DNA of 64,000 nt, from contig NZ_RHUM01000002.1 of assembly GCF_003937915.1 (NCBI RefSeq), positions 186,001-250,000 on the forward strand, in the 5' to 3' direction. The position numbers were made by a program, and so were the translations under genes. Position 1 is the stretch's first letter. Every line of letters starts with the position of its first letter. This DNA comes from Erwinia sp. 198 (lineage in GTDB: Bacteria; Pseudomonadota; Gammaproteobacteria; Enterobacterales; Enterobacteriaceae). Below, in pieces: positions 45,756 through 64,000 of the stretch. Under the pieces are notes generated by a model. The model was not told where the DNA came from. It made no database searches and worked only from the letters and a program-made list of their open reading frames with translations.

Positions 45756-45800
45756 AATCTTCATCCTCTTAAATTAGTTTTGGCGTTACGAGTATTACTA

Positions 45801-46903: not shown

Positions 46904-46909
46904 GCAGTT

Positions 46910-47431
46910 TTAGCCGCGCTGCTGGAGCAAATTGTGCCAGATAGCGTAACTCTCCTGCTCAAAGCAGACGATATTGACCTGTTCTACCGCCTCGTTCAGC
47001 CTGGCGGAAATCGCTTCAAAAGCAATTTCTGCCGCCAGCGTTTTAGGGAAACGATAGATGCCGGTGCTGATATTAGGAAATGAAACGGATTTAATTTTAT
47101 AGTCGTCAATCAAATCGAAGCAGCGGTGATAAGCGCTACGTAACCGATCCGGCTCGCCGTGCTGTCCGCCGTTCCACACCGGCCCCACGGTATGGATAAC
47201 GTAACGGGCAGGCAGGTTGCCCGCACCGGTGATCACCGCATCGCCTTCCTTACAGCCGCCCTGCCGGGCGCGGATCGCCTTACACTCTTCCAGAATGGCC
47301 TGGCCCCCGGCGCGATGTATTGCGCCATCCACGCCGCCCCCGCCCAACAGCGATGAATTAGCCGCGTTGACCATCGCCTCTACAGGAACTTGCGTGATAT
47401 CACCCTGTAATAATTTAATTTTATCAGACAT
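46910..47431 (-). CDS. YmdB-like macrodomain protein (O-acetyl-ADP-ribose deacetylase)
   Basis: 173 residues, one complete macrodomain. The ADP-ribose site is seen in LLQGDITQV, NAANSSLLGGGGVDGAIH, FPNISTGIYRFP and the VIHTVGPVW strand. The layout follows E. coli YmdB, which removes acetyl from O-acetyl-ADP-ribose and also modulates RNase III. Activity is inferred by family. It ends seven bases from the convergent pspF stop. A gene for a RyhB-type sRNA lies upstream on the same strand. Confidence 0.9.
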   Translation of the reverse strand: MSDKIKLLQGDITQVPVEAMVNAANSSLLGGGGVDGAIHRAGGQAILEECKAIRARQGGCKEGDAVITGAGNLPARYVIHTVGPVWNGGQHGEPDRLRSAYHRCFDLIDDYKIKSVSFPNISTGIYRFPKTLAAEIAFEAISARLNEAVEQVNIVCFEQESYAIWHNLLQQRG

Positions 47432-47514
47432 AAGCGCCTCCCTTTAGCTACCAGTATAGTCGGCCATAGCCTCTCTTTCACCGCGGCACGGTCGTAAACC
47501 ACCGCAGAATGCGC

Positions 47515-47605
47515 AAAAAAAAAGCCCGCGCAGGGCGGGCTAAAAATACTGGAAGCAATGTGAGCAATGTCGTGCCCTTCTCCGGTAGAGCCACCGTTGA
47601 AGCAC
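47515..47605 (-). ncRNA. ryhB: RyhB-type iron-sparing sRNA
   Basis: About 91 nt by inference (E. coli RyhB is 90). The core at 47546-47575 on the minus strand, GCACGACATTGCTCACATTG and then CTTCCAGTATT, is the conserved target-pairing core of RyhB. The 5' part forms a CGGTGGCTCTACCG hairpin. The 3' end is a terminator (AGCCCGC with GCGGGCT plus nine T, 47515-47541). A TTTACA -35 and a TATTAT -10 lie upstream, overlapped by a Fur box. RyhB acts with Hfq to repress iron-using proteins when iron is scarce. The locus differs from E. coli, where ryhB lies by yhhX. Confidence 0.92.
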
Positions 47606-47607
47606 AG

Positions 47608-47626
47608 AAGAATAATAATCATTCTC
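47608..47626. promoter_or_regulatory. Fur box over the ryhB promoter
   Basis: AAGAATAATAATCATTCTC matches 15 of 19 positions of the Fur consensus GATAATGATAATCATTATC and covers the -10 region of the sRNA. Confidence 0.8.
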
Positions 47627-47650
47627 ACACACAGCTGTAAAGTATTTATT

Positions 47651-47669
47651 GAGAATAATTCTCATTACC
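47651..47669. promoter_or_regulatory. Second Fur box upstream of ryhB
   Basis: GAGAATAATTCTCATTACC matches 14 of 19 consensus positions and contains the dyad TGAGAAT-A-ATTCTCA. It lies 43 bases upstream of the first, just before the likely -35 (47636-47641). Confidence 0.7.
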
Positions 47670-47892
47670 ACACTAAGATCGGGCGTATTTCGCCAAACTG
47701 ATCTTGCCCGCTGTTAAATAATACCCGGCGTTTTGCCCGGCGCGGTGCAATGTTTCATCAGTAACAAACGGGCAGCAGTTCCAAAGCACAGCACGTCCCG
47801 AGTATGAAAAAACGTCAGTTGTCCCCGCAAACTTTGGGGGAGCACCAAGAGTGCGGTACACTGTGAGGATTGCCTGATATTTCAGATGACCT

Positions 47893-49515
47893 ATGCGCAA
47901 ACTACTCTGCACTTTTCTTGTCGGCCTTAGCCTGTTCAGCGCTTTGGTTGCCGCCGCTCCGCCGGAAAACATCCGCCAGAGCGGCTTTGTCTATTGCGTG
48001 AACGGCGCGGCGACCACCTTTAATCCGCAGCTGGTCAGCGGCGGGCTGGTGGTCGATACGCTGGCCGCGCAGCTTTACGATCGCCTGCTGGATGTCGATC
48101 CCTATACCTATCGCCTGATCCCGGAACTGGCGGCAAGCTGGGAGACGCTGGATAACGGCGCTACCTATCGCTTTCATCTGCGGCACAACGTGTCTTTCCA
48201 GAAAACGGCATGGTTCACCCCTGGCCGACCTATGAATGCGGACGACGTGGTGTTCAGCTTTCAGCGTATTTTCGATCGCAACTCCGCCTGGCATGGCGTC
48301 AACGGCGGCAGCTATCCCTATTTTGACAGCCTGCAGTTCGCCGACAGCGTTGCCAGCGTAAAAAAGCTGAGCAGCGACACGGTCGAGATCCGGCTGAACG
48401 CGCCGGATGCTTCCTTTCTGTGGCACCTGGCGACCCACTATGCGCCGGTGCTTTCGGCTGAATATGCTGCGCAGTTGAGTAAAGTCGATCGGCAGGAGCT
48501 GCTGGATCGCCAGCCTGTCGGCACAGGGCCGTTTAAGCTTAGCGAATACCGCACCGGCCAGTATATCCGCCTCGCCCGCCATGCTAATTACTGGAAAGGA
48601 AAACCGCGGATGCCGATGGTAGTGATCGATATGGGCGCGGGCGGCACCGGGCGCCTTTCCAAACTCCTGACCGGCGAATGCGACGTGCTGGCCTATCCTG
48701 CCGCCAGCCAGATTTCGGTGCTGCGTGACGATCCGCGCCTGCGGCTGACGCTACGGCCAGGGATGAATATCGCCTATCTGGCGTTTAACACGCGCAAAGC
48801 GCCGCTGGATCGCGCCGAGGTGCGCCAGGCGCTGGCGCTGGCGATCAACAATGAGCGGCTGATGGAGTCCGTTTACTACGGCACGGCGGAAACGGCGGCT
48901 TCTATTTTGCCACGTGCTTCCTGGGCTTATGATAACAACGCGCGCGTCACCGAATACAATCCACAAAAATCACGTGAGATGCTTAAGGCGCTGGGCGTGG
49001 AAGATCTCCAGCTGACGCTGTGGGTACCGGCCACCTCGCAGGCCTGGAACCCCAGCCCGCTGAAAACCGCCGAGCTGATCCAGGCCGATCTGGCACAGGT
49101 TGGCGTCACGGTCAAAATTGTGCCCGTCGAGGGGCGCTTTCAGGAAGCGCGCCTGATGGAGATGAATCACGATCTGACGCTAACGGGCTGGGCTACCGAC
49201 AGTAACGATCCCGACAGTTTTTTCCGCCCGCTGTTAAGCTGCGCCGCTATCGGCTCGCAGACCAATTTTGCGCACTGGTGCGACGCCGCTTTTGACGAGA
49301 CGCTACAAAAAGCACTGCTCTCGCAGCAACTGGCGTCGCGCATCGAGTACTACGGCAAGGCGCAGGCTATGCTGGCGCAGTCGCTGCCGGTGCTGCCGCT
49401 GGCCTATTCGCTGCGCCTTCAGGCCTATCGCCACGATATTCACGGCCTGGTGCTCAGCCCGTTTGGCAACGCCTCTTTTGCCGGCGTTTACCGCGACCCA
49501 AGGACCAAGCCATGA
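47893..49515 (+). CDS. sapA: SapA, periplasmic peptide-binding protein
   Basis: 540 residues with a signal peptide ending near VAAA. It is an SBP family 5 protein close to E. coli SapA, for example [20 protein letters not shown] and [20 protein letters not shown]. In Salmonella and Haemophilus the Sap system helps resist antimicrobial peptides; in E. coli SapBCDF exports putrescine, so the true substrate is open. It is the first gene of sapABCDF. A possible promoter (TTGGGG, 17 bases, TACACT) ends at 47862. Confidence 0.95.
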
Positions 49516-50477
49516 TTATCTATACGCTGAGAAGGCTGGTGCTGTGGCTTGTGACGCTATTTTTGCTGACGGTGGTCGGTTTCAGCCTGAGCTATTTTAC
49601 GCCCCACGCGCCGCTACAGGGCGCTTCGTTTAGCGATGCAATACTGTTCTGGTATCAGGGACTGATGCAGTTTGATTTCGGCGTATCCAGCATTAACGGC
49701 GAGCCGGTTTCCCTGCAGCTGCTGGAAGTCTTCCCCGCTACGCTTGAGCTGTGCATTCTCGCTTTCGTGCTGGCGATGGCCGTTGGCATCCCGTTTGGCA
49801 TTGCCGCCGGCGTGATGCGTAACCGCTGGCAGGATAAAGCGATCAGCGCACTGGCGCTGCTGGGCTTTTCAATGCCCGTATTCTGGCTGGCGCTGCTGCT
49901 GACGCTTTTTTTCTCACTGGATCTGGGCTGGCTGCCGGTTTCTGGCCGCGTCGATCTGCTTTATCCCATGAAAAACATCACCGGTTTCGCACTGATTGAT
50001 GCCTGGCTGAGCGACTCGCCCTGGCGACACGAGATGTTAAAAAGCGTGCTGCTGCACCTGATATTGCCGGTGACGGCGCTGGCCGTGGCGCCTACTACGG
50101 AAGTAGTACGTCTACTGCGTATCAGCACGCGCGAAGTGATGGAGCAAAACTATATTAAAGCTGCCGCCACTCGCGGTCTTTCACGGCTGACCATTATCCG
50201 CCGTCACGTGCTGCATAATGCGCTGCCGCCGGTTGTGCCACGCCTGGGCCTGCAATTCTCTACCATGCTAACGTTGGCGATGATCACGGAAGTGGTGTTC
50301 AGCTGGCCAGGTCTGGGGCGCTGGCTGGTGGACGCCATCAGGCAGCAGGACTACGCGGCGATCTCCGCAGGCGTAATGATGGTTGGCGGTCTGGTGATTA
50401 CCGTCAACGTGCTGGCCGATATTCTGGGCGCGCTGACGACGCCGCTGAAGCATAAGGAATGGTATGCCCTCCGATAA
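49512..50477 (+). CDS. sapB: SapB, ABC permease
   Basis: 321 residues with about six membrane segments, of the DppB/OppB type. The cytoplasmic EAA loop reads [20 protein letters not shown], the contact site for the ATPases. It begins with an ATGA overlap on sapA and ends 14 bases inside sapC, so translation is coupled. Confidence 0.95.
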
Positions 50478-51354
50478 CATTTACGCCGAAAAACGGCTGC
50501 CCAGCACTTTCCGCAGCACCTGGCGGCTGTTTTATCATGACACCACCGCGATGATCGGTTTCTACCTGTTTATCGCGCTGCTGCTGCTGTGCCTGTTTGG
50601 TCGCCTGCTTGCGCCTTACGGGCTGGCGCAGCAGTTTTTAGGTTATCAACTGCTGCCGCCTTCCTGGTCGCGCTACGGCGATGTTTCATTTTTCCTCGGC
50701 ACGGACGATTTGGGGCGCGATCTGCTGAGCCGCCTGCTGAGCGGCGCGGCGCCAACGGTAGGATCGGCTATCGCCATTACCGTACTGGCCTCGCTTTGTG
50801 CCATGGTGCTGGGCGTTTTTGCCGGACTCACCAGAGGATTACGTTCGGCGGTGATGAACCATATTCTGGATACCTTTCTTTCCATTCCTTCACTGCTGCT
50901 GGCTATCATCGTAGTGGCGTTTTTCGGCCCAGGTTTAAGTCATGCCTGGCTGGCGGTATTCCTGGCGATAATTCCTCGTCTGGTGCGCTCGGTCTATACC
51001 GCCGTGCACGACGAGCTGGAAAAAGAGTATGTCACCGCCGCCCGACTGGATGGCGCCTCCAGCATGAATATTCTTCGCTATGCGATTTTCCCTAATATCC
51101 TGGCGCTGCTGGTTTCAGAATTTACCCGAGCGCTGTCGATGGCTATCCTGGACATCGCCGCGCTGGGCTTTCTGGATCTGGGCGCGCAGTTGCCTTCTCC
51201 CGAATGGGGAGCCATGCTTGGTGATGCGCTGGAGCTGATTTATGTCGCGCCCTGGACGGTGATGCTGCCCGGCGCGGCGATAATGCTCAGCGTGCTGATT
51301 GTCAATTTGCTGGGCGACGGTATTCGTCGCGCCATCGTTGCGGGAGTTGAATAA
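50464..51354 (+). CDS. sapC: SapC, ABC permease
   Basis: 296 residues, OppC-like, with five or six membrane segments. The N-terminal [19 protein letters not shown] and the EAA loop [20 protein letters not shown] are the family marks. The start lies 14 bases inside sapB. It ends TAATG with the sapD start. Confidence 0.95.
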
Positions 51355-52346
51355 TGCCGCTGCTCGATATTCGTAATCTGACCATTGAGTTTATGACCGC
51401 CGATGGCCCGGTAAAGGCGGTCGATCGCGTCAGTATTACGCTGACCGAAGGGGAAGTTCGCGGCCTGGTGGGCGAATCCGGCTCGGGCAAAAGCCTGATC
51501 GCCAAAGCGATCTGCGGCGTGACCAAAGATAACTGGCGGGTTACTGCCGATCGTATGCGCTTTGACGATATCGACCTGCTTAAGCTGTCGCCGCGCGAGA
51601 GGCGTAAACTTGTCGGGCATAACGTGTCGATGATTTTCCAGGAGCCGCAGTCCTGCCTTGATCCTTCTGAAAGCGTGGGTAAACAGCTAAAACAGGCTAT
51701 CCCCCGCTGGACGTGGAAAGGCCGCTGGTACCAGCGTTTTCGCTGGCGGCATCGTCGCGCTATCGAGCTGCTGCACCGCGTGGGCATCAAAGATCATAAA
51801 GATATTATGCGCAGTTTTCCCTATGAGCTGACCGAAGGCGAATGTCAGAAAGTGATGATCGCCATTGCGCTGGCTAACCAGCCGCGCCTGTTGATTGCCG
51901 ATGAACCCACCAACGCGATGGAGCCGACGACGCAGGCGCAGATTTTCCGTCTGCTTTCCCGGCTTAATCAGAACAACAACACCACGATTTTGCTGATCAG
52001 TCACGATTTGCAGATGCTGAGCCACTGGGCGAACCGCATCAACGTGATGTATTGCGGCCAGACGGTGGAAACCGCCACCAGCGAAGATTTAATCGTGCAG
52101 CCGCACCATCCTTATACGCAGGCGCTGATCAGGGCGATGCCGGACTTTGGCCGTTCGCTGCCGCATAAAAGTCGTCTGAACACCCTGCCCGGCGCTATCC
52201 CCTCGCTGGAGCACCTGCCCATCGGCTGCCGTCTGGGGCCGCGCTGCCCTTATGCACAGAAAAAATGTATCGAAACGCCCCGCCTGGCGGGTGGAAAATC
52301 GCACCTGTTCGCCTGTCATTTCCCGCTGAATATGGAGAGTCAGTAA
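51354..52346 (+). CDS. sapD: SapD, ABC ATPase
   Basis: 330 residues. Walker [17 protein letters not shown] and Walker [17 protein letters not shown] are intact. The signature motif is LTEGECQK in place of LSGGQ, as in E. coli SapD. The C-terminal oligopeptide-transporter extension has Cys-rich [16 protein letters not shown]. coli SapD is also needed for Trk potassium uptake. Start and stop overlap the neighbours. Confidence 0.95.
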
Positions 52347-53152
52347 TGGTTGAAACGCTGCTGGAGGTACGCAACCTCAGTAAAACCTACCGTTACCGAA
52401 CCGGCCTGTTCCGGCGTCAGCATGTTGAGGCGGTCAAAGAGGTCAGCTTTACGCTACGCGAAAGACAGACGCTGGCGATTATCGGCGAGAACGGCTCCGG
52501 CAAGTCGACGCTGGCGAAAATGCTCAGCGGCATGATTGAGCCGAGCGCGGGCGATATCCTGATTGACGATCGCCCGCTGCAATACGGCGATTACGGCTAC
52601 CGCAGCCAGCGTATCCGCATGATTTTTCAGGATCCGTCCACTTCGCTGAATCCACGCCAGCGCATCGGCCAGATCCTGGATTTTCCGCTGCGTCTGAATA
52701 CCGATCTGACCGCTGAAGCGCGGGAAAAGCGCATTATCGCCACCCTGCGCCAGGTCGGTTTGCTGCGCGATCACGCCGCTTATTATCCTCATATGCTGGC
52801 ACCGGGACAGAAGCAACGCGTGGGCCTTGCCCGCGCGCTGATCCTGCAACCTAAGGTGATTGTCGCTGACGAGGCGCTGGCCTCGCTGGATATGTCGATG
52901 CGCTCGCAGCTGGTTAATCTGATGCTGGAGCTCCAGGACAAGCATGGCATCGCCTATATTTATGTGACGCAGCATCTGGGCATGATGAAGCATATCAGCG
53001 ATCAGGTAATCGTTATGCATCACGGCGAAGTGGTGGAGCGCGGCAGCACCGCCGACGTATTGGCCTGCCCACTGCACGATCTGACGAAAAGGCTGATTAC
53101 CAGCCACTTTGGCGAAGCGCTGACGGCGGACGCCTGGCGTAAAGATCGTTAG
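52346..53152 (+). CDS. sapF: SapF, ABC ATPase
   Basis: 268 residues from [19 protein letters not shown] at 52346, which overlaps the last base of the sapD stop; the frame is open 27 codons further up, inside sapD. Walker A GENGSGKSTLAKML, signature LAPGQKQRVGLARAL, Walker B VIVADEALASLDMS. It ends LTADAWRKDR, as in E. coli. It is the last gene of the operon. In E. coli fabI lies between sapF and yciW; here it does not. Confidence 0.96.
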   Translation: MVETLLEVRNLSKTYRYRTGLFRRQHVEAVKEVSFTLRERQTLAIIGENGSGKSTLAKMLSGMIEPSAGDILIDDRPLQYGDYGYRSQRIRMIFQDPSTSLNPRQRIGQILDFPLRLNTDLTAEAREKRIIATLRQVGLLRDHAAYYPHMLAPGQKQRVGLARALILQPKVIVADEALASLDMSMRSQLVNLMLELQDKHGIAYIYVTQHLGMMKHISDQVIVMHHGEVVERGSTADVLACPLHDLTKRLITSHFGEALTADAWRKDR

Positions 53153-53342
53153 TCCCGCTCTTTTAAACGCCCGTTCCGCCAGGAATGGGCGAATTTCCAG
53201 CCGGTTCCGCTGTTTCTTTCACCATTATGCTTTTCCGCTATTTATTAGCACCGATCGGTCTTTGTCGGTTATTCCGCTTGCGCGAGGATAGGCTTGCCCT
53301 CCGGTCCGTACTCAGGGCCAGCCAACTTGAAAAGGAATGACT

Positions 53343-54479
53343 ATGGAACAGCGTCGGCTTAAAAGCCATAGCCACTGGTATCACGAAACCCAGGCCACGC
53401 TCGCCGGCCGGGCAGAGCCTTTGGTGCCCGAGGCCGCTGATATTGAAGACCGTTTTTTGCTGGGACTGGCCGCGCTTTGTGAAGGCGAGCTGCGGCAGAC
53501 GCTACAGGAAGCGCAGCCCGCGCTGCTGGCTTCCAGAGATCTCTACTCGCTGCTGTTTCCTTCGTCGTTGACTGCCTCGCTGACGCATACGCTGACGTTA
53601 TACGATCGTCTCAGCACCGCACTTACCGTGGCGCAGGTAACTGGCGTTCAGCGCCTGTGTAACCATTACGCCGCTCGCCTCAATCCGCTAAGCGGCCCGG
53701 ACTCCTCACGTGAGAGCAACCGTCGCCTGACGCAAATTACCGAATATGCCCGCCAGCTGGCGATGCAGCCGACGCTGATTGACGAGGCGGCATTGCAGCG
53801 GCTGGATGAGGCAGGCCTGACCGCGCCGGATATCATCACCTTTAGCCAGATTATCGGCTTTGTTTGTTATCAGGCGCGAGTGGCGGCTGGCGTGCATGCC
53901 CTGCTCGCCCTGCCGGTTCGCTGGATGCCTGGCGTAACGGTTCCGCCAGATGCGGACGAATGTGGCTTTACCAGCCAGCATAGCTGGCAGCCCCGGCTGA
54001 CGCCCGTTGAGCTGCGTTACGCCACGCACAGCCAGCTGGAAGCGCTGACCTTCTGCCAGCCGCAGCAGGCGTTAAGCCGCAGCGCCTGGCTGCTGGCGCA
54101 CGACGGGGACGCCCTGTACGGCTGGGGACAGCTGATTAAGGTGCTGGAAGAGCGAACGACGACGCCGGAAGGCCGGCTTGCCGCCGCCGTAGCCGCACGG
54201 ATCAACGGTAGTGCAGCCTGCTTTAACCGGTACGCGCCGGAAGCGCTGCGTAGCGCGTTGAAAAAAGGCGTTGATGACGCGATCGAAAGCGCCAGCGCCG
54301 TCGATCGGACAGTGATACAGACCGCCGCGCAGCTGACCCGCTCGCCGGAGCGCTTCAGCGCCGCGCATTTACAGCCGCTGGAAGAGGTGGGTTTTTCGCT
54401 GCAGAAAATGATGAACGTGATTTTCAGTACGGCGCTGGCAGGCTGGAATAACCGGCTGATGCAGTCGCTGGGGAGTTAG
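53343..54479 (+). CDS. yciW: YciW, CMD/AhpD-like putative peroxidase
   Basis: 378 residues. The N terminus MEQRRLKSHSHWYHETQ and the middle block LTLYDRLSTALTVAQVTGVQ resemble E. coli YciW. The protein holds two AhpD-like halves (YAARLNPLSGPDSSRES and later AAARINGSAACFNRYA; FLTRSPERFSA-like near the end). E. coli yciW is induced with cysteine genes and affects cysteine metabolism; the reaction is unproven. An ATG two codons earlier overlaps the ribosome site AAGGA, so 53343 is preferred. It ends six bases from a convergent LysR gene. Confidence 0.85.
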   Translation: MEQRRLKSHSHWYHETQATLAGRAEPLVPEAADIEDRFLLGLAALCEGELRQTLQEAQPALLASRDLYSLLFPSSLTASLTHTLTLYDRLSTALTVAQVTGVQRLCNHYAARLNPLSGPDSSRESNRRLTQITEYARQLAMQPTLIDEAALQRLDEAGLTAPDIITFSQIIGFVCYQARVAAGVHALLALPVRWMPGVTVPPDADECGFTSQHSWQPRLTPVELRYATHSQLEALTFCQPQQALSRSAWLLAHDGDALYGWGQLIKVLEERTTTPEGRLAAAVAARINGSAACFNRYAPEALRSALKKGVDDAIESASAVDRTVIQTAAQLTRSPERFSAAHLQPLEEVGFSLQKMMNVIFSTALAGWNNRLMQSLGS

Positions 54480-54485
54480 CGTTCG

Positions 54486-55391
54486 TCAGGGCTGACGTTC
54501 GCTAAGCCAGCGTCGTACCTCGTCAAAAAAGTGCTGGGACAGCGGCGTCGCTCTGCCCGGCTCGGCAATCACCACTGCTGCCTGGCGGCTCATCGGCGCA
54601 ATGGCCAGCGGGCGAGACTGCAATTCTGGCGTCATGGACGGCAGCAGATGGCCACGAGGCGAAATCAGGCAGCCCAGCCCTACCTGAACGCCCTGCGCCA
54701 GTTGAAACACGGAGGTGGTTTCCAGTATCACCCGCAGATGGATATCGGCTTCCCGAAAATGGGTGTCCAGATAGCGGCGGAAATAGCGCGTCTGCTCCGC
54801 CAGACACAGCGGGATCTCTTTTAATTCGTCCAGGCTCAGCGGCGCTTCGCCTACCAGCTGCGGAAAATGTTCGGGATGGAAAACCACTTCCACGCCATTA
54901 TCCGCCAGCGGTTCGGCCTGGAAATGCAGCTCGCGCAGCGTGACCAGCTCAAAAAAGCCAATGCCGACGTCCACCGTATAGCTGTTCAATGCGTCAAGCA
55001 GCTGGTCGGCGCTAAGCACCGAGACGCGATAGTTAAGCTGCGGATAACGTTCCTGGATGCCTTTCAGCACCAGCGGCAGCGAGATGCTGCACTGGGGCAC
55101 CACGCCAATACGTAGCGTGCCCGCGACGCCATGTTTTAACGATTCGACTTCCAGCTTGAGGCCCTGATAGACGGAGACGATTTCCCGTGCCCACGTCAGC
55201 ACCCTTTCGCCTTCTGGCGTAAAGCCGTCGAAGTTATTGCTACGGTTGATCAGCGATAGCCCCAGCTCGCGCTCCAGGTTTTTCAGACGCATCGACAGCG
55301 TCGGCTGGCTGACGAAGCTGGCCTCCGCCGCGCGGCCAAAATGGCGCTCGCGCTCAAGGTTACATAAATAAATTAATTGCTTAATGTCCAT
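54486..55391 (-). CDS. LysR-family transcriptional regulator
   Basis: 301 residues. The N-terminal winged HTH reads LERERHFGRAAEASFVSQPT, followed by the LysR linker helix and a substrate-binding domain (LRIGVVPQCSISLPLV, VDVGIGFFELV, LAEQTRYFRRYLDTHF). I cannot place it in a named subgroup or predict its ligand. It is convergent with yciW and has no divergent target next to it, only a mobile-element ruin. The ATG chosen gives MDIKQLIYL; a TTG five codons up is in frame. The ribosome site is weak (AAAGAAAA). Confidence 0.88.
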   Translation of the reverse strand: MDIKQLIYLCNLERERHFGRAAEASFVSQPTLSMRLKNLERELGLSLINRSNNFDGFTPEGERVLTWAREIVSVYQGLKLEVESLKHGVAGTLRIGVVPQCSISLPLVLKGIQERYPQLNYRVSVLSADQLLDALNSYTVDVGIGFFELVTLRELHFQAEPLADNGVEVVFHPEHFPQLVGEAPLSLDELKEIPLCLAEQTRYFRRYLDTHFREADIHLRVILETTSVFQLAQGVQVGLGCLISPRGHLLPSMTPELQSRPLAIAPMSRQAAVVIAEPGRATPLSQHFFDEVRRWLSERQP

Positions 55392-55462
55392 TTTTCTTTT
55401 TTTCAATGAGTTACACAGTATACTTTGCGTCTGATAAAAAAGTTATGTACTCAATTATGTAC

Positions 55463-55582
55463 TCATTTAAATTGTACTCGGCGGTAGCCCTGTTCGGCAT
55501 CCGATACTTTATACCCTCTTTTCTCTAAAAGCTGCGTAAGTAGTGCTTCCAATCCGATAATCTCATCGCCCTTCAGCGGCAT
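55463..55582 (-). CDS. Small ORF of possible phage origin
   Basis: 39 residues from the first ATG (MPLKGDEIIGLEALLTQLLE), closing in RRVQFK; the frame is open from 55654 without a start (SNGAVMPLKG). The helical GLEALLTQLLEKRGYKV segment looks like real protein sequence. I recognise no family and see no ribosome site, so it may be the C-terminal remainder of a longer gene cut by the IS relic next to it. Confidence 0.35.
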   Translation of the reverse strand: MPLKGDEIIGLEALLTQLLEKRGYKVSDAEQGYRRVQFK

Positions 55583-55704
55583 TACAGCGCCGTTACTATA
55601 AATAAGCGAGCGCCCGGGCTGCCGCACGGCCGCCGGTGATACCCCCCGGGCAGACTACCTGTCCTTTCAAAGTCAGAAAGCAAAAAACCTCGCCGGGGCG
55701 AGGT

Positions 55705-56154
55705 TCACAATTTATAAGCGCCGCATGCAAAGGTGACGCTCTCAATAAATCCGTTCTGCGTTGGCTTGCCTGGCTGGATTAAGCGCAACTCAACACCATT
55801 TTCAAAAGCCCCTTGCTCCAGCGCACGGCAGGTAAACTCCGGACCCTGATCGGTTCTTATCGTTGCAGGATAGCCACGAAACAGCGCAATGCTGTCCAGA
55901 GTGCGTGTCACCTGAACGCCTGCAATCCCGAATGCCGTGGTGATCGTCAGACACTCCTTCGTGAAGTCATCCACGCAGGTCAGACACTCAACCCGGCGGC
56001 CGCTGGCAAGAGCATTCATGACAAAATCCATTGACCATGTCAGGTTCGGCGCAGCCGGACGCTGAGCCAAATAACGGCAGATCGACAGGGACAAACCTGT
56101 GAGCCTGCAGGCACGACGTTGCGACAGACCGGTCGCATCACACATCAACACCAC
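55705..56154 (-). pseudogene. IS3-family transposase orfB, deleted and truncated
   Basis: The frame reads GLSQRRACRLTGLSLSICRY, then jumps at AQRPAAPNLTW (near 56050-56061) straight into the catalytic core LTWSMDFVMNALASGRR, losing roughly 70 residues. The joint is at RPAA, which occurs at both edges in intact relatives as I remember them, so recombination between short repeats is likely. The first two DDE residues lie in SMDF and RTDQGPEF. The third, in the block after GFIES, is gone; the last ten residues (VTFACGAYKL) come from foreign sequence. Confidence 0.85.
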
Positions 56155-56491
56155 GGCTTCCCGTTTCTGGTCTGTCGTCAGTACTTTCGGCCCGCGGCCA
56201 ACTGAAGCGCCTCCTTATCCAGCGTAGCTTCGGCCAGCAGCTTCTTGAGTCGTGCGTTCTCTTCCTCAGGCGACTTCAGCCGCTTAACCTCGGGCACCTC
56301 CATGCCGCCATACTTTTTACGCCAGGTATAAAACGTGGCATCGGAAATGGCGTGCTTGCGGCAGAGTTCACGGGCGGATATCCCGGCTTCGTGGAGAATA
56401 CTGATGATTTGTTCGTCGGAAAAACGCTTCTTCATGGGGATGTCCTCACGTGGCTTATGAAGACATTACTAATATCGGGGTGTGTTAATCA
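55738..56491 (-). mobile_element. IS3-family (IS407-group-like) element, truncated and deleted
   Basis: An orfA gene and a damaged orfB typical of IS3-family elements. Homology stops abruptly after the codons GFIES at 55738, so the right end with the last third of the transposase is lost. About 70 residues are also missing inside orfB. The other end is less sure; TGATTAACACACCCC at 56477-56491 could be the terminal repeat. A full element would be about 1.2 kb; about 0.75 kb remains. It cannot transpose on its own. Confidence 0.85.
56178..56435 (-). CDS. IS3-family transposase orfA
   Basis: 85 residues. HTH of the IS3/transposase_8 type (KKRFSDEQIISILHEAGISA, KHAISDATFYTWRKKYGGM) followed by a Leu-rich coiled coil (LKSPEEENARLKKLLAEATL). 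Intact relatives have two more residues around HEAG. In intact elements a -1 frameshift near its end fuses it to orfB; here orfB is broken. OrfA alone can still bind DNA. Confidence 0.85.
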   Translation of the reverse strand: MKKRFSDEQIISILHEAGISARELCRKHAISDATFYTWRKKYGGMEVPEVKRLKSPEEENARLKKLLAEATLDKEALQLAAGRKY

Positions 56492-56507
56492 ACGGCGAGC
56501 AGGTCAA

Positions 56508-56532
56508 TGCCAAAGCCCCCATTACTGGGGGC
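56508..56532 (-). terminator. Terminator after the chemoreceptor gene
   Basis: On the minus strand GCCCCC-AGTAAT-GGGGGC followed by TTTGGC. It begins nine bases after the chemoreceptor stop. Confidence 0.65.
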
Positions 56533-56540
56533 GAACCACA

Positions 56541-58187
56541 TTAGAAACTTTCCCAATCTCCGGCTGATACAGCAGCCGCCTTCGCGGGCGTACGGCTCAC
56601 GGATGGCTTAACGAAAGTTTCGGTTTTTTTGTATGTCGGCGTATCTGAAGTTAATTTAAAAGCAGACACCAGTTGGCTGAGCGTCTCCGCCTGATCCTGT
56701 AGCGATCTGGACGCGGACGAGGCTTCCTCGACCAGCGCAGCATTTTGTTGCGTCACTTCGTCCATCTGCCCGATAGCCAAATGAACCTGCTCAATACCGC
56801 GGCTTTGTTCCGCTGCCGAAGTAGCAATCTCATTGACAATAGTCGCGACCTGGTTGATTGAGCTGGTCACTTTTGCTGAGTTTTCACCCACGCTGGCCGC
56901 CTGCTGCGCCCCGCTTTCGACGTGCATAACGGAGGCGTTGATCAGATCTTTAATCTCTTTTGCCGCAGAGGAAGAACGCTGTGCAAGATTACGCACTTCG
57001 CTTGCCACCACCGCAAAACCTCTGCCATGCTCGCCGGCTCTTGCCGCCTCAACGGCAGCGTTCAGCGCCAGAATATTGGTCTGGAATGAAATCCCCTCGA
57101 TCAGCCCCGTTATTTCGGAAATTTTTCCGGAGCTGGTGCGGATATCTTCCATCGTATCCAACATATTCTTCACGGACTGGCCGTTTTCTGCCGACAGCCT
57201 ATTAGCGCTATCGGCCAGCGTGCTCGCCTCGCTGGCACTGAAAGAGTTGTTTTTTACCGTTTCACTCAGTGCAGCCATACTCGAAGAGGTTTCTTCAAGC
57301 GAAGCCGCCTGCTGCTCGGTACGGGAAGACAAATCTTCATTACCCGCAGCAATTTGCGAAGATCCAGAGCTTACGGATAACGATGCGCTATTAACAGCCG
57401 TTAACGTCTCTGAAAACTTAGTCAGTAATTTGTTGAATGCAGAAGCGGTTTTTCCTATTTCATCAGCGCGGCTGTCGTCAGCATGCCGGGTAAGGTCTAA
57501 CGTGTTGCTGACTTCCAGCATTGTCCCTTCTATATTCAGAAGGCTTCTTCTGATATTCAGAATGGTTTTTACAGCAAAAAAACTGAGTAGCACAATCACC
57601 AAAAGAACCGCAGTTGACATCATCCAGAGTGTTTTTGAATAGATTTCTTTATTGATTTTTTTTAGTTCATTGCCAATCTGGATATTAAGTTCAATCTGCT
57701 TATTCAAATCCGATGCTAATTTTCTGCCTGCGGCACCTATGCCAGATTCACCCTGAAGCAAGGCCAGCGTTACGCTCTCGTTTTGCGCACGGGAAGCGTT
57801 AAGAAACGCCGGTAAATCAGCCCGTACGGCGTCTATGTCACGATAGATCTGCTCTGTCATACTACGATCTTCAGCATTGGAGATGTCATTAGCCATATAG
57901 TAATCAGTCAGCTTTTTTAATTCATCCAGCGTGTCGTCAATATGGCGTTCAGCGGCAGGCAGCTTTGTATCATCGTTAAGCGCCTGGTGCTTGTATAAGG
58001 CAAGGCCCAGGCCGCTGGCAGCGCTAATGGATTTGTTAAGATCCTTAATGCTGGGAATAGCATTATTCTGCACATATTCAAAGCGGGATTGAAAACCCGA
58101 TATAATTGAAAAAGATACCGCTGCCAGCGTGCATAAAGCCACAGCCAGCAGGGTAAACGTCAGGAACAAACGCTGCGTAATATTCAT
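56541..58187 (-). CDS. Methyl-accepting chemotaxis protein
   Basis: 548 residues. A membrane helix at about 8-30, a periplasmic four-helix-bundle sensor of about 150 residues, a second helix near 190-210, HAMP, and the cytoplasmic signalling domain with the hairpin tip [20 protein letters not shown]-like ([20 protein letters not shown]) and [17 protein letters not shown]. The C terminus is DWESF, a close match to the NWETF tether that docks CheR and CheB, so it is probably a high-abundance-type receptor. The ligand is unknown. It lies in an accessory region away from any che operon. Confidence 0.93.
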
Positions 58188-58915
58188 ACCTACCTCAAAC
58201 CTGATAATTTAATAAGCCCTCAGAAGACGTTTTGTCCCCAGGGTAAGGTTATCGGTATGACGCTGAAAAAAATTAGCTTTTCCATCGCGTTTAAATTTTT
58301 TTTCTTGCAGGACTATGTAACCCATTATTACTATTGATTTTATTAGTTAAGTTACATTTGCTCACGTAATGCTGACATGCAAAGAATGCGTATTATGCTA
58401 CCAGCAATGCTTTTTATCTTTTTGGTTATTCTGTTGCTTTAATCGTTAGCCTGTAAGCCAAAGCTCACTGCATATGTTAATTAATTGAGAGGGTTATGTT
58501 TCATGTTTTAAGGATAAACCGACCGGACGTCCCTGTTCCTGACGCCGTAACGGCCCTTCCTGAAGCGGCCAGTATTAATCACGCCGATAAAACCGCCCGG
58601 AGGCGGCTTAGCGTTTTAGCATTATTCAACCATGGATAACAAAAAGGGATTTGCAATGTGGGCAGAGCAATGCCTGCTCTCGGGAAATTTTTGCAGCTGA
58701 ATGCCTGGAGCTTTTTCCGCATACAGGGCATTTGGCGTCAGCGTTTATCCTGGCGATACGGCCCATCATCTGAGCGAAAAAGGACATGGTATTTGGCCTT
58801 GTGAGAAGTGAGCCTGATTATACCACTCCTGCGCAAATTTTACCCAACTAACCTGCGTGCCCGCTCTGGATTAGGTCGCCACACTTCAAGGTATAGCTTG
58901 CTCTGTAAGCCCCGA
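58188..58915. other. Gene-free stretch upstream of the chemoreceptor
   Basis: 728 bases with no reading frame I trust. It is AT-rich near the chemoreceptor start, where its promoter must lie. A GC hairpin (AAGCCGCC-TCC-GGGCGGTTTTAT on the minus strand, about 58588-58608) resembles the terminators common at the ends of phage genes, suggesting more decayed phage DNA. Confidence 0.45.
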
Positions 58916-59299
58916 TCATTTGAGTGTCTCAATGGTTGAACCGTGCGAATTCATCACATATACCTTGTCTCCCGGATAGATGTATTGATATAGCGTTCCG
59001 TCCGCTTCTTTGAGGCCGGGCATTTTCACGCTATCCACCTCGCTGATGAGCACAGCTACAGCGTCCCTGACCAGTACGCCATCCCTTTCACTGATCATGA
59101 TGGCCTCTTGCTGTAAGACTTTGCTTTTCTCTTCGTTTTCATAGATAGCAGGCATCACCTCGGCAAAATCGGGATTGGGATGCTCTTTGGTCAGCGTCAG
59201 GACATAGCCGAAGGTTTCCGAACCGCGTCTTGCAATAGTGATATTGTTTACCTCACAGATATGCGTCACACCTCCGATGATACTTTTAACGGTCAGCAT
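58916..59299 (-). CDS. Hypothetical protein, 127 residues
   Basis: I do not recognise the family. The protein is soluble, acidic and beta-rich: MLTVKSIIGGVTHICEVNNI, RRGSETFGYVLTLTKE, then a Glu/Lys helix and GTLYQYIYPGDKVYVMNSHG near the end, which reads like a small beta-barrel strand set. GAAGGAGAG lies before the ATG, so translation is likely. It sits between phage-like and tRNA-like relics, so a mobile origin is possible. Confidence 0.65.
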   Translation of the reverse strand: MLTVKSIIGGVTHICEVNNITIARRGSETFGYVLTLTKEHPNPDFAEVMPAIYENEEKSKVLQQEAIMISERDGVLVRDAVAVLISEVDSVKMPGLKEADGTLYQYIYPGDKVYVMNSHGSTIETLK

Positions 59300-59332
59300 A
59301 ATACTCTCCTTCTTCCGGACGTAAAAAAGCCC

Positions 59333-59357
59333 CGCGTTGGCGAGGCTTGGGTTGTTT
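59333..59357 (-). terminator. Terminator upstream of the 127-residue gene
   Basis: On the minus strand AGCCTCGC-CAAC-GCGGGGCT followed by six T. It lies before the hypothetical gene, so it ends some short transcript that begins between 59358 and 59470. Confidence 0.75.
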
Positions 59358-59469
59358 GCGCGCCTTATTCAAATAACGGGCAGACAACGCTCAGAACGTC
59401 ACCCCTTAGGCTGATACCCATATAATATCTTTTATATCATTAGGTTATGATAAGACGCAGGCGCAAAAA

Positions 59470-59492
59470 AAGGCCACCCAGGGTGACCTTAA
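59470..59492 (-). terminator. Terminator after the tRNA-like sequence
   Basis: On the minus strand AAGGTCAC-CCTGG-GTGGCCTT with seven T, eleven bases after the encoded CCA of the tRNA-like gene. Confidence 0.75.
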
Positions 59493-59502
59493 GAACAAGT
59501 AC

Positions 59503-59578
59503 TGGACCGCCGTCAGGGATTCGAACCCCAAACCTTCAGCTCCGTGGCTGATGCTCTCTCCAGGTGAGCTAACGGCGG
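59503..59578 (-). tRNA. Degenerate tRNA-like gene, probable pseudo-tRNA
   Basis: The minus strand folds as a cloverleaf of 76 bases including CCA. A perfect 7-bp acceptor stem (CCGCCGT with ACGGCGG), D stem GCTC/GAGC, anticodon stem TCAGC/GCTGA, T loop TTCGAAT on stem TGGGG/CCCTG, discriminator T and encoded CCA are all present. The anticodon loop is CACGGA: only six bases, with no U33. No standard anticodon can be read; one lost T would give ACG (Arg), but that is speculation. It is followed by a terminator, so it may still be transcribed. Confidence 0.6.
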
Positions 59579-59584
59579 TTTAAT

Positions 59585-59634
59585 CCTGATGCCGGTTACG
59601 TTCCGGTAACCTGATGCCGGCTGCGTTCCGCTAA
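59585..59634. repeat. 25-bp tandem duplication
   Basis: CCTGATGCCGGTTACGTTCC and five more bases are repeated at once with three changes. The pair lies just upstream of the tRNA-like gene, where a promoter would be expected. Confidence 0.8.
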
Positions 59635-59736
59635 AATCGTTAGCGCGGCCTGCCCACTCGTCTTCCTGAGGAAAAGCATTGTTGATACGTCCTGCGCACA
59701 ACAGCATGTGCTGGTAGTGTAGTACATCTCAGACAG

Positions 59737-59763
59737 AAAAAAGGCCCTGCCTGAGCAGAGCCT
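59737..59763 (-). terminator. Intrinsic terminator, minus strand
   Basis: AGGCTCTGC-TCAG-GCAGGGCCT with six T. No gene is visible directly upstream of it on this strand, so it may mark an unseen short transcript or decayed phage DNA. Confidence 0.65.
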
Positions 59764-60074
59764 GAAATTTGGTGCGCCTGTTTATCATCACTGATTAAGG
59801 GTCAGTCCTTTGGTCGGGCGGCGCATTGACGACTACCTGATTAAGCATAGTTATGGTTTAGCAAATAGCAAATTAAGGGATGATGGCAAGGCGCTGTGGT
59901 TCAGGCGAGATAGCCAGCCACCGCGCCGGTAATAGCGGCTTAAAGTGGCCTGATGGTGGTACTTATGCTGCTAAACGTCTCTCCATACTTTGGTTCGCGC
60001 GATAGTACTGGCAGCATTTCAGGACAGGCTTCTCTTAATAAGATTCGTCTCAGAACAAAATTCAACCACCGGGA

Positions 60075-60090
60075 TGTGATTCGGATCACT
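60075..60090 (+). promoter_or_regulatory. Candidate CRP site
   Basis: TGTGATTCGGATCACT matches nine of the ten core positions of TGTGA-N6-TCACA. It lies 60-100 bases before an orphan terminator on the same strand. Confidence 0.5.
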
Positions 60091-60119
60091 TTATGATCCA
60101 CGTATTACTTTAGGGTGGT

Positions 60120-60176
60120 GAGGCAAAATAGAGTTAACTTCGTTTTTTGCCCGCGGCTCCCTGCGGGCTTTTTTTT
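60120..60176 (+). ncRNA. Candidate small RNA ending in a strong terminator
   Basis: GCCCGC-GGCTCCCT-GCGGGC followed by eight T (60149-60176) is a strong terminator with no gene before it. A near-perfect CRP site is centred at 60082-60083; a class II start would fall near 60124, giving an RNA of about 50-60 nt. It matches no sRNA I remember. The start and the very existence of the RNA are inferred. Confidence 0.4.
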
Positions 60177-60512
60177 ATATAAATAACCCTGGATAAAGCT
60201 TTGCCTGTCGGCACCAGAACAGGGATGAGTATGATATAGCTGCTATTTTTACCAAAAGCGTGCAGGGCTCTAATCTAATAAGGACTGAGATAAGCGCTAA
60301 TATTTTCTATCAGAGAGGTTACGCATAAAGCGTGACAGAAAGCAGATAGTTAATTTAAAGCAAAGTCAGATATTATAATAACTGTATTCAGCAGCACGCA
60401 GCCTTAACTATCCGCGTTTGATAAGAGGATTTCAGAACACAAGGTTTTAGTGCCACAGTAAAATACAGGAAAAGCATTACTCTAAACGCCGTTATCTTTA
60501 TTCCTACTGCTG

Positions 60513-60815
60513 CTAAGCCTTTAAAATTGATACCGGTACCGATATCCAGCTGCCTATTGAAGCGTGAACCACGGCGCGATAAACCGCCTCCGGTAAGGTT
60601 TTCCCCACGGAAGGCGCTCTTTCGTCCAGATAAGCGATAAACATCTGCTTATGGCCGCCGCTGCTCAGAAATATATTCAGATTGTTTATCAGATATCCGG
60701 CCTTGTCCCACGTCGTGGCAGCCCCTTTCGGCCAGGCGCCGCCGATAGCTTTAAGCACGGCCCATTCCAGGGCTTTGCCTTCCAGTTCGTCGGTTTGAAC
60801 GGTTTCAGTCTGCAT
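60513..60815 (-). CDS. DUF2591-like phage protein
   Basis: 100 residues. The opening TDELEGKALEWAVLKAIGGAW has the layout of DUF2591 proteins of lambdoid phages (SELTGxALDWAVA...). A middle part follows and then the closing TLPEAVYRAVVHASIGSWISVP, which matches the usual AAMRCYVASKLGDEIEVP-type ending. Function is unknown. It is probably a leftover of a prophage; no other phage gene flanks it intact. Confidence 0.65.
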   Translation of the reverse strand: MQTETVQTDELEGKALEWAVLKAIGGAWPKGAATTWDKAGYLINNLNIFLSSGGHKQMFIAYLDERAPSVGKTLPEAVYRAVVHASIGSWISVPVSILKA

Positions 60816-61105
60816 TATATTCCCCGTAAGCCTGCCTGCCTGGCAGAAAAGCGTTAGCTGTTAAATTGCTGCCAGTTATTCCATACTTCGTTAAAGAATG
60901 CACCCTGATAATGCTTTTGTCGCTTATATTCAGAATCAGACCAGGTCTGCATTGGCATCTTTTAATATTAACAACCCTCGGGCGAAACGGATTATTCTTA
61001 TTTGTAGGTGCTCCCGGTCCGGTATTTATAAATTGGTGCCTGATGTTAGTTTACGTGCCAGTACGATGCTTTTATGTGACAACGTCACGCCAACGCCTCT
61101 TCCGG
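60816..61105. other. Intergenic stretch with a GTGAC-N3-GTCAC dyad
   Basis: 290 bases with no convincing gene. GTGAC-AAC-GTCAC at 61076-61088 is the same dyad type as the two at 25339 and 25392. It lies just beyond the 3' end of the DJ-1/PfpI gene. Confidence 0.4.
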
Positions 61106-61813
61106 TTACTTCCCGCAGGCAGGATTGTTAAGCCGTAACGCCGCTTTTTGCGTTGCCTTCAGCCTTTTAGCAACGAATGCTGCCGTCTGGGCGCTGGCTC
61201 TTTCGACCTGCTCTGCTGAAGCCACGCGAGGGGAACCGCAGTTAAACGGTGGCGCGGGGTCGTATTCCATATGCAGCTGGATAGCCTGAGCAGTTTCATC
61301 GTCATAAAGCGCGGCCACCACGCCAAGCGCAAAATCGATGCCGGAAGTCACGCCTGCGCCAGTAATAAGGTTACCGTCCCGCACTACGCGTTCGCTCACC
61401 GGCTCGGCGCCCAGTAACGCCAGCTGCAACAGCGATCCCCAGTGGCAGGTCGCTTTGCGTCCCTGTAATAGCCCGGCGGCGCCCAGTACCAGCGAGCCGG
61501 TACAAACAGAGGTAAGCAGATTAACCTCTGCGCTTTTGCGGCGAATAAACGCCAGCGTGTCGCAGTCTTCCATCAGGGCAATCTGCCCTGGCCCACCGGG
61601 CACGCAAAGCACATCCAGCTTTGGGCAAGCCTCAAAGGTTGTGGAAGGCAGGATTGCCATGCCGCGATCGGAAACGACCGGCTCCCTTGTCTTCCAGATG
61701 AGATGCACCTGCGCGCCAGGCGCACGGGAAAAAACTTCAAAAGGGCCGGTGAGATCGAGCTGGGTTAGATCGGGATAAAGCAAAAGGCCAATTGCCAGGG
61801 TTTGGGCAGACAT
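61106..61813 (-). CDS. DJ-1/PfpI family protein (isonitrile hydratase-like)
   Basis: 235 residues from MSAQTLAIGLLLYPDLTQLD, whose ATG at 61813 has AGGAG before it; the frame is open 67 codons further up but that part looks non-coding. The nucleophile-elbow Cys is in LLTSVCTGSLVLGAAGLLQG and the family block GLLYPDLTQLDLTGPFEV-like start, TCHWGS and ITGAGVTSGIDFALGVV follow. The closest family members are isonitrile hydratase (InhA) and related ThiJ/PfpI enzymes; the substrate here is not proven. It is a single gene with a terminator upstream separating it from the KGG-repeat gene. Confidence 0.88.
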   Translation of the reverse strand: MSAQTLAIGLLLYPDLTQLDLTGPFEVFSRAPGAQVHLIWKTREPVVSDRGMAILPSTTFEACPKLDVLCVPGGPGQIALMEDCDTLAFIRRKSAEVNLLTSVCTGSLVLGAAGLLQGRKATCHWGSLLQLALLGAEPVSERVVRDGNLITGAGVTSGIDFALGVVAALYDDETAQAIQLHMEYDPAPPFNCGSPRVASAEQVERASAQTAAFVAKRLKATQKAALRLNNPACGK

Positions 61814-62033
61814 GGTTTTCTCCTGAAAAAATGAAGGCCGCATATTCTCATACAAATGGCGAACGTAAAAAGCTGTCTTATACGCCATACGCCCTTTCTC
61901 GTTATCTGAATTCTCTCTAAAAAGATATAAACGAAGCGGCGACAAGGTGGCTATGAAGGTATAAAACAGGGTAAAAGAGACAGAAAAATTTACGCTTCTG
62001 AGGGAGCTGAACAAAATAATAGCGAGGCATAAA

Positions 62034-62072
62034 AAAACCCGCTAACCCTGAAACAGAGGGATGCGGGTTTTA
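62034..62072. terminator. Terminator between the KGG-repeat gene and the DJ-1 gene
   Basis: AAAACCCGC pairs with GCGGGTTTT, with A and T runs on both sides and a second small CCCT/AGGG stem inside. It works in either direction; on the minus strand it ends the KGG-repeat gene. Confidence 0.8.
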
Positions 62073-62180
62073 GCCGGTTACGAAACAGCCCTGCACTACT
62101 TTCTTCGGCCTGCTTACAGCCGGATAAAGGTTTTAGCCGATTTAATCAACCGGGTGATACCTGTAGCTGTCCCGTGTTAC

Positions 62181-62345
62181 TTAGCTGCGGTGACTGTTCT
62201 GCCCACCTTTTTTACCGGCTTCGGAGGCCTTTTCGCGGTCATTTCTGAAATTACCGCTGCTGCTCTGGCCGCCTTTTTTACCTGCTTCTGAAGCTTTTTC
62301 ACGATCCTCGGCGAAGTTGCCGGAGTTTCCACGATGCTGAGTCAT
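62181..62345 (-). CDS. yciG: YciG-like KGG-repeat stress protein
   Basis: 54 residues, MTQHRGNSGNFAEDREKASE and on. Two copies of GNF-x-x-DREKASEAGKKGGQ make up the protein, the KGG (con-10-like) repeat of E. coli YciG and YmdF. YciG belongs to the RpoS-controlled yciGFE genes and helps swarming and stress survival; here yciF and yciE are absent. The ribosome site GAGGAAG is good. The small size hides it from ordinary gene finders. The name yciG rests on similarity to YciG over YmdF, which is a close call. Confidence 0.85.
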   Translation of the reverse strand: MTQHRGNSGNFAEDREKASEAGKKGGQSSSGNFRNDREKASEAGKKGGQNSHRS

Positions 62346-63078
62346 AATATCTTCCTCTTCGTGTATTCAATTTCTCACCGGATAATATAGCTCGGCTACT
62401 ACTTTTTTACCGAAAGCCGGTGAACGTCGTGCATAAGTAACTATAGCAACCTCTCGTCAGGCTGCAAGTGAAAACCTTATTTGACGCCAGAACGCCCGTC
62501 TACTTTTATATTTCACAGTTTCGCTAAAGACCTTTATGAAAAAAACAAATAAAATCAGCAAAATATATCACTGCGACGAATGTGATATAACTTTTCAGAA
62601 TTATTTATAATATTTCCAAATAAAAACCAGTAAGAGCCTGCCTTTATTTCTGCCGTAAAATACACCTGCCACAATTGCAAGACGACAGAAGCGGTATCCA
62701 TTCCTGTCTGATTACGGCTGGTCGCTGAACAGAGCGGTAAATAATGCTCGCAGCCAGCGGTGTCACACGTCACGATGCGTGTGGTCGTGCCACCTCAGAA
62801 TTTTGCTAAAGCCAGGGATGGGCATGGCTGGTCCGGCGAAGGCGAAACGCGGCTGGATGTGTATCATGCCTGGCTGCTGGAAGATTTGGCTGGCGGGCGC
62901 GTATCCTGACCCAGGAAACCCGGGATGGGAACCCGGCTAAAGCGCTGGCGAAAAAACGCCAAACCCGATGATTAACGGCCATCAGGCACCGCTGGATGGC
63001 CTGGTCGCCGCCGCCCTCGCCCGGCAAGCCTGACCAGGCGAACGTTCTGTAAACGCAGCCTGCCAGGGACGGCAGCCG
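62346..63078. other. Gene-poor stretch with coding relics
   Basis: 733 bases. A 24-residue frame at 62536-62610 (+) ends in IYHCDECDITFQNYL, and KYTCHNCKTTEA is readable in another frame about 65 bases later, as if a small CxxC protein had decayed. At 62774-62908 (+) a 44-residue frame reads ARDGHGWSGEGETRLDVYHA, also protein-like but cut. None has a good ribosome site. The rest shows nothing. Confidence 0.35.
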
Positions 63079-64000
63079 TCAGGCGACGCCCAGGGCAGCT
63101 TTCACTTCGCTGGCGATTTTTTCAACCTGCGGCCCGTAAATGACCTGGATATCGTGGTCGCTGACGCGATTGATGCCGTTGGCGCCCGTGGTCATCAGTG
63201 TTTGATCGACGACCTCTTTCATCTCTTTCACCCGCACCCGCAGTCGGGTAAAGCAGCAATCGACGTCCTCTATATTGCCTTCGCCACCCAGCCCGCTAAT
63301 GATGACGCGAATACGCTGGTCGGCCGCGACCGTTTTGCTTTCCGGCTCCGTTTCTTCCGCTTCCCTGCCCGGCGTTTCTACCCGCATACGCAGGATAACA
63401 AAGCGAAAACCGTAGTAGTAAACCGGCACGTAGATGGCGCCAAGCGCCAGCGTCCACCACCATTGGGTTTTGCTGCCGCCAAGAATACCAAACACCACGA
63501 GATCGATAGCGCCGCCCTGAATGTTGCCGATCATCAGGTGCAGCATCGACATCAGCATAAAAGACAGGCCGCTAAGGAGCGCGTGCAGCAGATAAAGGAC
63601 AGGCGAAACAAAGATAAAGCAGAATTCCAGCGGCTCGGTGATGCCGGTCGTAAACGAAGTAAGCGCGCCCGCCAGCATCAGCGCTTTGACCCGCTGCTTG
63701 TGCTCCGGCCTCGCGCAGTGATAGATCGCCAGCGCGGCCGCCGGCAGGCCAAACATCATCACCGGGATTTTTCCCTGAGCCAGGAACTGCGTGGCGTTTC
63801 TGATAATGTCATCCGGCACCGAGCCGGGATGGGTCAGCGCGGTATTGAAGATATTCAGCGCGCCCACGATGGTCTGATTATCCACGGTAGCGACGCCGCC
63901 GATAGGCGTGAAGCGCACCGTTTCGTTAAGGATATGATGCAGGCCGGTAGGGATAAGCAGGCGTTCGCTGGTGCCATACAGGAAAGCCCCATACTGCCCG
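63079..64000 (-). CDS. PTS alpha-glucoside-type enzyme IICB, 3' part
   Basis: 307 residues are seen and the frame is open to the window edge (GAFLYGTSERLLIPTGLHHI), so the start lies beyond base 64000. The end of the IIC domain has the signature TSFTTGITEPLEFCFIFVSP. After a charged linker the C-terminal IIB domain carries the phospho-Cys motif IEDVDCCFTRLRVRVKEM and ends VIYGPQVEKIASEVKAALG. That IIB form fits alpha-glucoside/isomaltulose transporters (AglA, PalE) or MalX better than PtsG. A partner IIA and the glycosidase would lie outside the window. Confidence 0.85.
   Translation of the reverse strand, partial: GQYGAFLYGTSERLLIPTGLHHILNETVRFTPIGGVATVDNQTIVGALNIFNTALTHPGSVPDDIIRNATQFLAQGKIPVMMFGLPAAALAIYHCARPEHKQRVKALMLAGALTSFTTGITEPLEFCFIFVSPVLYLLHALLSGLSFMLMSMLHLMIGNIQGGAIDLVVFGILGGSKTQWWWTLALGAIYVPVYYYGFRFVILRMRVETPGREAEETEPESKTVAADQRIRVIISGLGGEGNIEDVDCCFTRLRVRVKEMKEVVDQTLMTTGANGINRVSDHDIQVIYGPQVEKIASEVKAALGVA

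Follow-up and report, generated by a model that had tools for sequence, protein, structure and literature searches.

The window, i.e., the whole 64-kb stretch of Erwinia DNA that was analysed, contains a CRP-like site followed on the same strand by an intrinsic terminator; the two are referred to here as the element. The element and its nearest neighbours are arranged as follows (positions are counted from the first letter of the window):

60075..60090, + strand: CRP-like site TGTGATTCGGATCACT, centred at 60082.5, with 9/10 core positions of TGTGAN6TCACA
60143..60148, + strand: T6 run in the sequence directly 5' of the terminator stem
60149..60176, + strand: intrinsic terminator, a GC-rich 8-pair stem (60149-60168) and then T8 (60169-60176)
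59503-59578, - strand: broken tRNA
59737-59829, - strand: conserved phage element
60513-60815, - strand: 100-aa ORF with a PHROG match

The zone, which an earlier note had described as free of genes, is indeed poor in them, and the broken tRNA, the phage element and the 100-aa ORF are the nearest features. Coordinates read off the sequence also confirmed that a 9/10 CRP core and a strong terminator lie 58 bases apart (60091-60148, from the core to the terminator stem). The statement that no ORF lies between them is fair but not literally true: part of a 23-aa frame with a GTG start (60115-60186), which spans the gap and the terminator, falls there. Two further ORFs overlap the CRP core, one on the + strand (59953-60096, 47 aa, ATG) and one on the - strand (59940-60101, 53 aa, GTG), and the peptides over both had no match in Pfam or PHROG. 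A decayed protein gene was rejected as an explanation because 0 of 10 peptides matched up to E 0.1 in either database; so was the leader of a downstream + strand gene, since no later + strand ORF up to 64000 was taken for a gene. A small + strand gene, for instance the 47-aa ORF, could have the terminator at its end and the core within its coding sequence, but this is very improbable. This frame is open and stops 52 bases 5' of the stem; however, no ribosome-binding site is seen in the 20 bases before it, and, besides lacking a Pfam or PHROG match, it has no relative in BLAST searches with 59930-60230 (60 genomes) and 60000-60185 (392 genomes).

In shape, the terminator resembles those of sRNAs. 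The fold of 60147-60176 reaches a z of -3.20 against shuffled sequences, and the terminator tops the terminator list for 44001-64000. Eight hairpins of -8 kcal/mol or lower in the window are followed by at least seven T, and only two in the 64 kb, those of the element and of RyhB, are followed by at least eight. The T6 run and the U8 tail together resemble an Hfq-binding module. Between 54486 and 60815, where a part of the ORFs was tested, those taken for genes are on the - strand, and the nearest upstream + strand ORF taken for a gene, of 380 aa, ends at 54479, with ORFs of at least 130 aa and those reaching 56000 considered in 54480-56000; thus, the terminator serves no evident gene. A search for terminators was one route to the Hfq-regulated sRNAs of E. 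amylovora. That study (PMC4070566) required a hairpin, six or more U, four or more G+C among the final six bases and a G+C share of 50% or higher among the final 25; of the 117 terminators that it predicted, 23 marked the ends of short transcripts dependent on Hfq. By these measures, the hairpin of the element has 8 U, 6 G+C among the final six bases and 18/25 among the final 25.

The CRP core alone is not significant, since the 64-kb window holds one core of at least 9/10 and 30 Markov sequences hold an average of 1.0. The genome itself has nine TGTGAN6TCACT sites, the window's included, versus one for a reversed control; as equal base frequencies would by arithmetic give approx. 8.6, this count proves little, and only the placement of the sites is unusual. 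In particular, seven of the eight other TGTGAN6TCACT sites lie outside ORFs of at least 90 aa, where 14.3% would be expected (binomial approx. 9e-6); the yardstick is the share of 16-mers outside such ORFs in the window alone, and any ORF of at least 90 aa on either strand was counted, real or not. Of the 12 perfect TGTGAN6TCACA sites in the genome, eight are outside such ORFs. The window's CRP-like site therefore belongs to a class that is sited mostly outside ORFs in this genome, and we infer from this placement that such sites, where they are outside ORFs, are mostly genuine, the window's site probably among them. CRP prefers a T/A pair next to the half-sites. Such a pair flanks four of the nine TGTGAN6TCACT sites, including that of the window and also the one site inside an ORF (L061).

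The pairing of a core with a terminator is rarer than the core alone. Across 392 family genomes, the pattern TGTGAN6TCAC-N55-85-GGCTTTTT was matched 50 times, in 44 genomes, and the reversed control once; six genomes, including the one studied here, have two matches each. Several of these matches are visibly the same locus seen in different related species; the number of independent cases is therefore below 50. It is unlikely that the CRP site, be it genuine or due to chance, and the terminator are merely close to each other without an RNA being made from them. A window of this size should hold one such core by chance, the candidate -10 described below is poor and conservation was not found in the searches that follow; however, the placement of the site class outside ORFs, the excess of pattern matches over the control (even with several at one locus) and a strong terminator that has no evident upstream gene all argue against mere proximity.

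When 59930-60230 was compared with 60 genomes by BLAST, the element was matched only at the terminator region, in 3 of the 59 others. The same was seen among 37 Erwinia genomes (terminator region only, in 2 of 36 others) and with 60000-60185 as the query in 392 family genomes, where at most two candidates were scored per genome (terminator region only, in 4 of 391 others). Matches in G033, G019, G047, G102, G158, G163 and G272 all cover the terminator region only. The query used against the Erwinia genomes was a longer one and also picked up the phage element, in four of them, and the 60513-60815 ORF, in G033 and G019, where the element is not beside it. A covariance search, as proposed in the earlier note, was run with a model of the part 5' of the terminator, built from one sequence given twice, and found nothing but the genome of origin, both in the 392 family genomes (0 of the 391 others) and in the 37 Erwinia genomes (0 of the 36 others). 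The 392 family genomes, many of them small, were drawn evenly from a larger group, and we saw no second strain of this species in the set. The earlier note had named a lack of conservation of either element as one of two grounds for abandoning the idea of a small RNA. Across the other species searched, such a lack was found, save for terminator-like stems; however, the surrounding DNA is mostly unshared too. Synteny searches gave no counterpart of the element, either through the DJ-1/PfpI neighbour or through the 60513-60815 protein, for which there was one relative, in Erwinia phyllosphaerae. In E. amylovora, 13 of 40 Hfq-dependent sRNAs were mostly confined to the species (PMC4070566).

Other origins of the sequence were considered. 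The element had no match in E. coli genomes or plasmids, and while 21 phage records matched the region, those listed aligned at the phrog_1453 gene and at the tRNA and never over the element; hence, a sequence common to E. coli, plasmids or phages was rejected. An exact 27-mer search of viral contigs gave 0 matches. A repeated element was likewise rejected, as the genome holds one full copy and the other 29 matches are short, with E 0.001 or worse.

A decayed prophage adjoins the element on the left, as indicated by an unassignable tRNA, a phrog_1453 gene and the phage element at 59737-59829 (- strand). The tRNA-like gene (59503-59578, - strand), to which ARAGORN assigned no anticodon, is 84.7% identical, along 58 bases, to phage genes some of which are annotated as tRNA-Arg and is probably a decayed phage tRNA. 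The element could be a scar: a gene or operon may have been deleted, leaving its CRP-activated promoter and its terminator side by side, and these may still be transcribed into an RNA devoid of function; such an origin is conceivable, albeit on the unlikely side. The decayed prophage next door, the lack of any counterpart of the surrounding DNA in the related genomes searched, and a short gene-less distance of the kind that a deletion would leave are consistent with it, but no relative with the gene in place was found, and a second unit of the same geometry (see below) would have to be a coincidence. If the element is only a scar, it is a warning for the prediction of sRNAs from orphan promoters and terminators.

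The phage element is of interest in its own right. It is approx. 93 bp long, has its own terminator and is found with 79-85% identity in four other Erwinia genomes, and its central 20-mer occurs exactly in seven viral contigs (copies at L008-L011 and L041-L047). In L041, the order is a Q-like antiterminator gene, the phage element, and holin and endolysin genes, with one unmatched - strand ORF intervening in the stretch from the antiterminator to the lysis genes. In lambda, pR' and tR' are found at the leader of the late operon. The place of the phage element in L041, together with its own terminator, suggests that it may be the leader of the phage late operon, with a terminator similar to tR'. 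The phage element can also be read as an ORF of 12-13 aa (MR[RL]PxxG...N) that has no indels in 10 aligned copies (10 of 12, with L043 and L046 left out); in these 10 copies, both partners are changed in 1 of 21 predicted pairs, and covariation is therefore hardly informative. In Rfam, the phage element comes closest to Ysr49 (E 0.048; 20.3 bits versus 95). Farther away, an IS1222 frameshift element (RF00383) lies at 56094-56211 (- strand) between two transposase-like ORFs.

The sequence around the core can itself be folded, and one more feature has to be considered:

60065..60119, + strand: imperfect inverted repeat containing the CRP core, which would be a 5' hairpin if it were part of a longer transcript

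Accordingly, a longer structured sRNA of approx. 110-135 nt might start upstream of 60065 and carry the CRP palindrome as part of a 5' hairpin; CRP binding would then be incidental or, as for Spot 42, repressing. None of 200 shuffles folds as well as 60055-60176 (z -3.58), in which nested pairs surround the core (ACCACC/GGUGGU, GUGAU/AUUAC and GGAUCA/UGAUCC); for 60042-60176, z is -3.15 and 2 shuffles are as good. However, much of this signal comes from the terminator, whose z was given above; the 5' hairpin alone (60060-60121) has a z of -2.61 on the + strand and -2.90 on the - strand, and a CRP palindrome folds by itself. Moreover, no promoter-like + strand site is found in 59441-60207, and the covariance model met no relatives in the 392 and 37 genomes from which covariation could be read. 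We consider a longer RNA quite unlikely.

The short RNA favoured here would depend on two predicted features:

60111..60116, + strand: candidate -10 TAGGGT, 21 nt after the site, with T1, A2 and T6 matching (3/6)
60124..60176, + strand: predicted RNA of approx. 53 nt, composed of a weak hairpin, a U6 run, the terminator hairpin and a U8 tail

At a class II CRP site, the -10 lies approx. 21-22 bases after the core. TAGGGT would place CRP at -40.5 or -41.5, so the spacing proposed in the earlier note holds insofar as a hexamer with T1, A2 and T6 is in place, but that hexamer is poor. A scan for consensus promoters identified no sigma-70 site on the + strand of 59441-60207, which is not unusual for CRP-dependent promoters. 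When 16 CRP sites outside ORFs were scored on both sides, five of the 64 side-positions at offsets 21 and 22 had TANNNT, those of the window and of a second unit on contig C36 among them, versus 38 of 1600 over offsets 1-50; since offsets 4, 16, 25 and 35 have three occurrences each, the same as offset 21, the latter is no clear peak. TANNNT is also present at offset 16 in both the window and C36 units. The fold of 60124-60176 has an energy of -16.8 kcal/mol (z -2.45), and the 24 nt before the terminator are no better structured than shuffles (z -0.47).

From the DNA elements, their spacing and the placement of the site, we infer CRP binding, transcription, a start point, Hfq binding and any target, as follows. 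When cAMP is high, CRP would bind at 60075-60090, approx. 41 bases upstream of the start, and, acting as at class II promoters, would recruit RNA polymerase to the poor -10 hexamer TAGGGT. Transcription would start at approx. 60123-60124 and end in the T run at approx. 60176, yielding an RNA of approx. 53 nt. Hfq might bind the end of this RNA, formed by U6, the terminator and U8, and its short A/U-rich 5' part might base-pair with mRNAs. Judged by the DNA motifs, a lineage-specific CRP-activated RNA of approx. 53 nt is the best reading of the locus, although a tentative one; the notion of a CRP-activated sRNA is plausible, and its support is somewhat better than when it was first noted.

The arrangement was also compared at 21 strong CRP sites of the genome (9 TGTGAN6TCACT and 12 TGTGAN6TCACA, the window's included). 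A terminator follows within 260 nt at 5 of the 21:

L056: terminator 191 nt downstream of the CRP site
L063: terminator 226 nt downstream of the CRP site
L071: terminator 87 nt downstream, CRP site inside an ORF
L073: terminator 79 nt downstream of the CRP site
Window site: terminator 79 nt downstream of the CRP site

Among the 21 sites, a position outside ORFs is combined with a strong terminator no more than 100 nt away in two only, that of the window and C36:145953. In both, the terminator stands at 79 nt on the strand that has TANNGT at offset 21. The second unit is located thus:

C36:145870-145968 (L073:1118-1216), - strand: perfect CRP core with TACCGT at offset 21

The two units have the same GCCCGC/GCGGGC stem ends and agree at no more than 22 of the 56 bases that separate core from terminator, which does not establish kinship. 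In 36 other Erwinia genomes, the C36 unit was matched in the terminator region only, in three of them. The ORF divergent from it presumably encodes a threonyl-tRNA synthetase, and a 121-aa ORF follows its terminator on the same strand, so the C36 unit could be a leader. Taken as a pair, the two loci might mean that the lineage has at least two minimal CRP-switched RNA genes built on one plan, i.e., sRNAs of recent origin, not conserved, that would place new targets under the control of carbon status, a reading that we regard as distinctly doubtful. The shared plan would then consist of a CRP core, 20 bases, TANNGT, a transcript of approx. 53 nt and a GCCCGC/GCGGGC terminator, with the T run beginning 79 nt from the core.

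The proposed 53-nt RNA corresponds to no Rfam family at the cut-off. The earlier note had linked it to no sRNA, naming Spot 42, CyaR and McaS as different, and the Rfam search agreed: no family reached the gathering cut-off, so a known Rfam RNA was rejected, and none of the three was among the nine hits obtained in 59800-60500 up to E 10, in which agreement, where shown, was mainly in the terminator. McaS is under CRP control. It is an Hfq sRNA, as the proposed RNA would be. Spot 42 and CyaR are the best-known CRP-controlled sRNAs, and both are old and widely conserved (PMC4098024). CyaR is switched on by cAMP-CRP and bound by Hfq, as the proposed RNA would be, but is highly conserved in enterobacteria, which the element is not, whereas Spot 42 (spf), also CRP-controlled, is repressed by CRP (PMC4098024). 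The group 3 Hfq-regulated sRNAs of E. amylovora are similar in that they are intergenic and mostly found in one species; in contrast to the element, which is a prediction, they were seen by RNA-seq, and the term 'CRP' is absent from the main text of that paper (PMC4070566). If real, the element would add another CRP-activated sRNA to a known type. Such a very short, lineage-specific RNA would illustrate how a CRP site and a terminator beside a prophage scar can give rise to a new riboregulator.

Two Rfam families come closest. Anti-hemB (RF02837) has the best E-value over the element (0.0043, 23.3 bits) and agrees best over the terminator, but its gathering score is 49.5 and it is a Burkholderia family. 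RprA (RF00034) gives the top score (24 bits, E 3), again best over the terminator; it was rejected because its gathering score is 70 and the genome's own RprA candidate is elsewhere (C36:164181), where it scores 64.5 bits and so also stays below 70. A second, weaker RprA-like match (48.8 bits) is present at G033:C4:65098-65221, in a genome whose main RprA lies on another contig.
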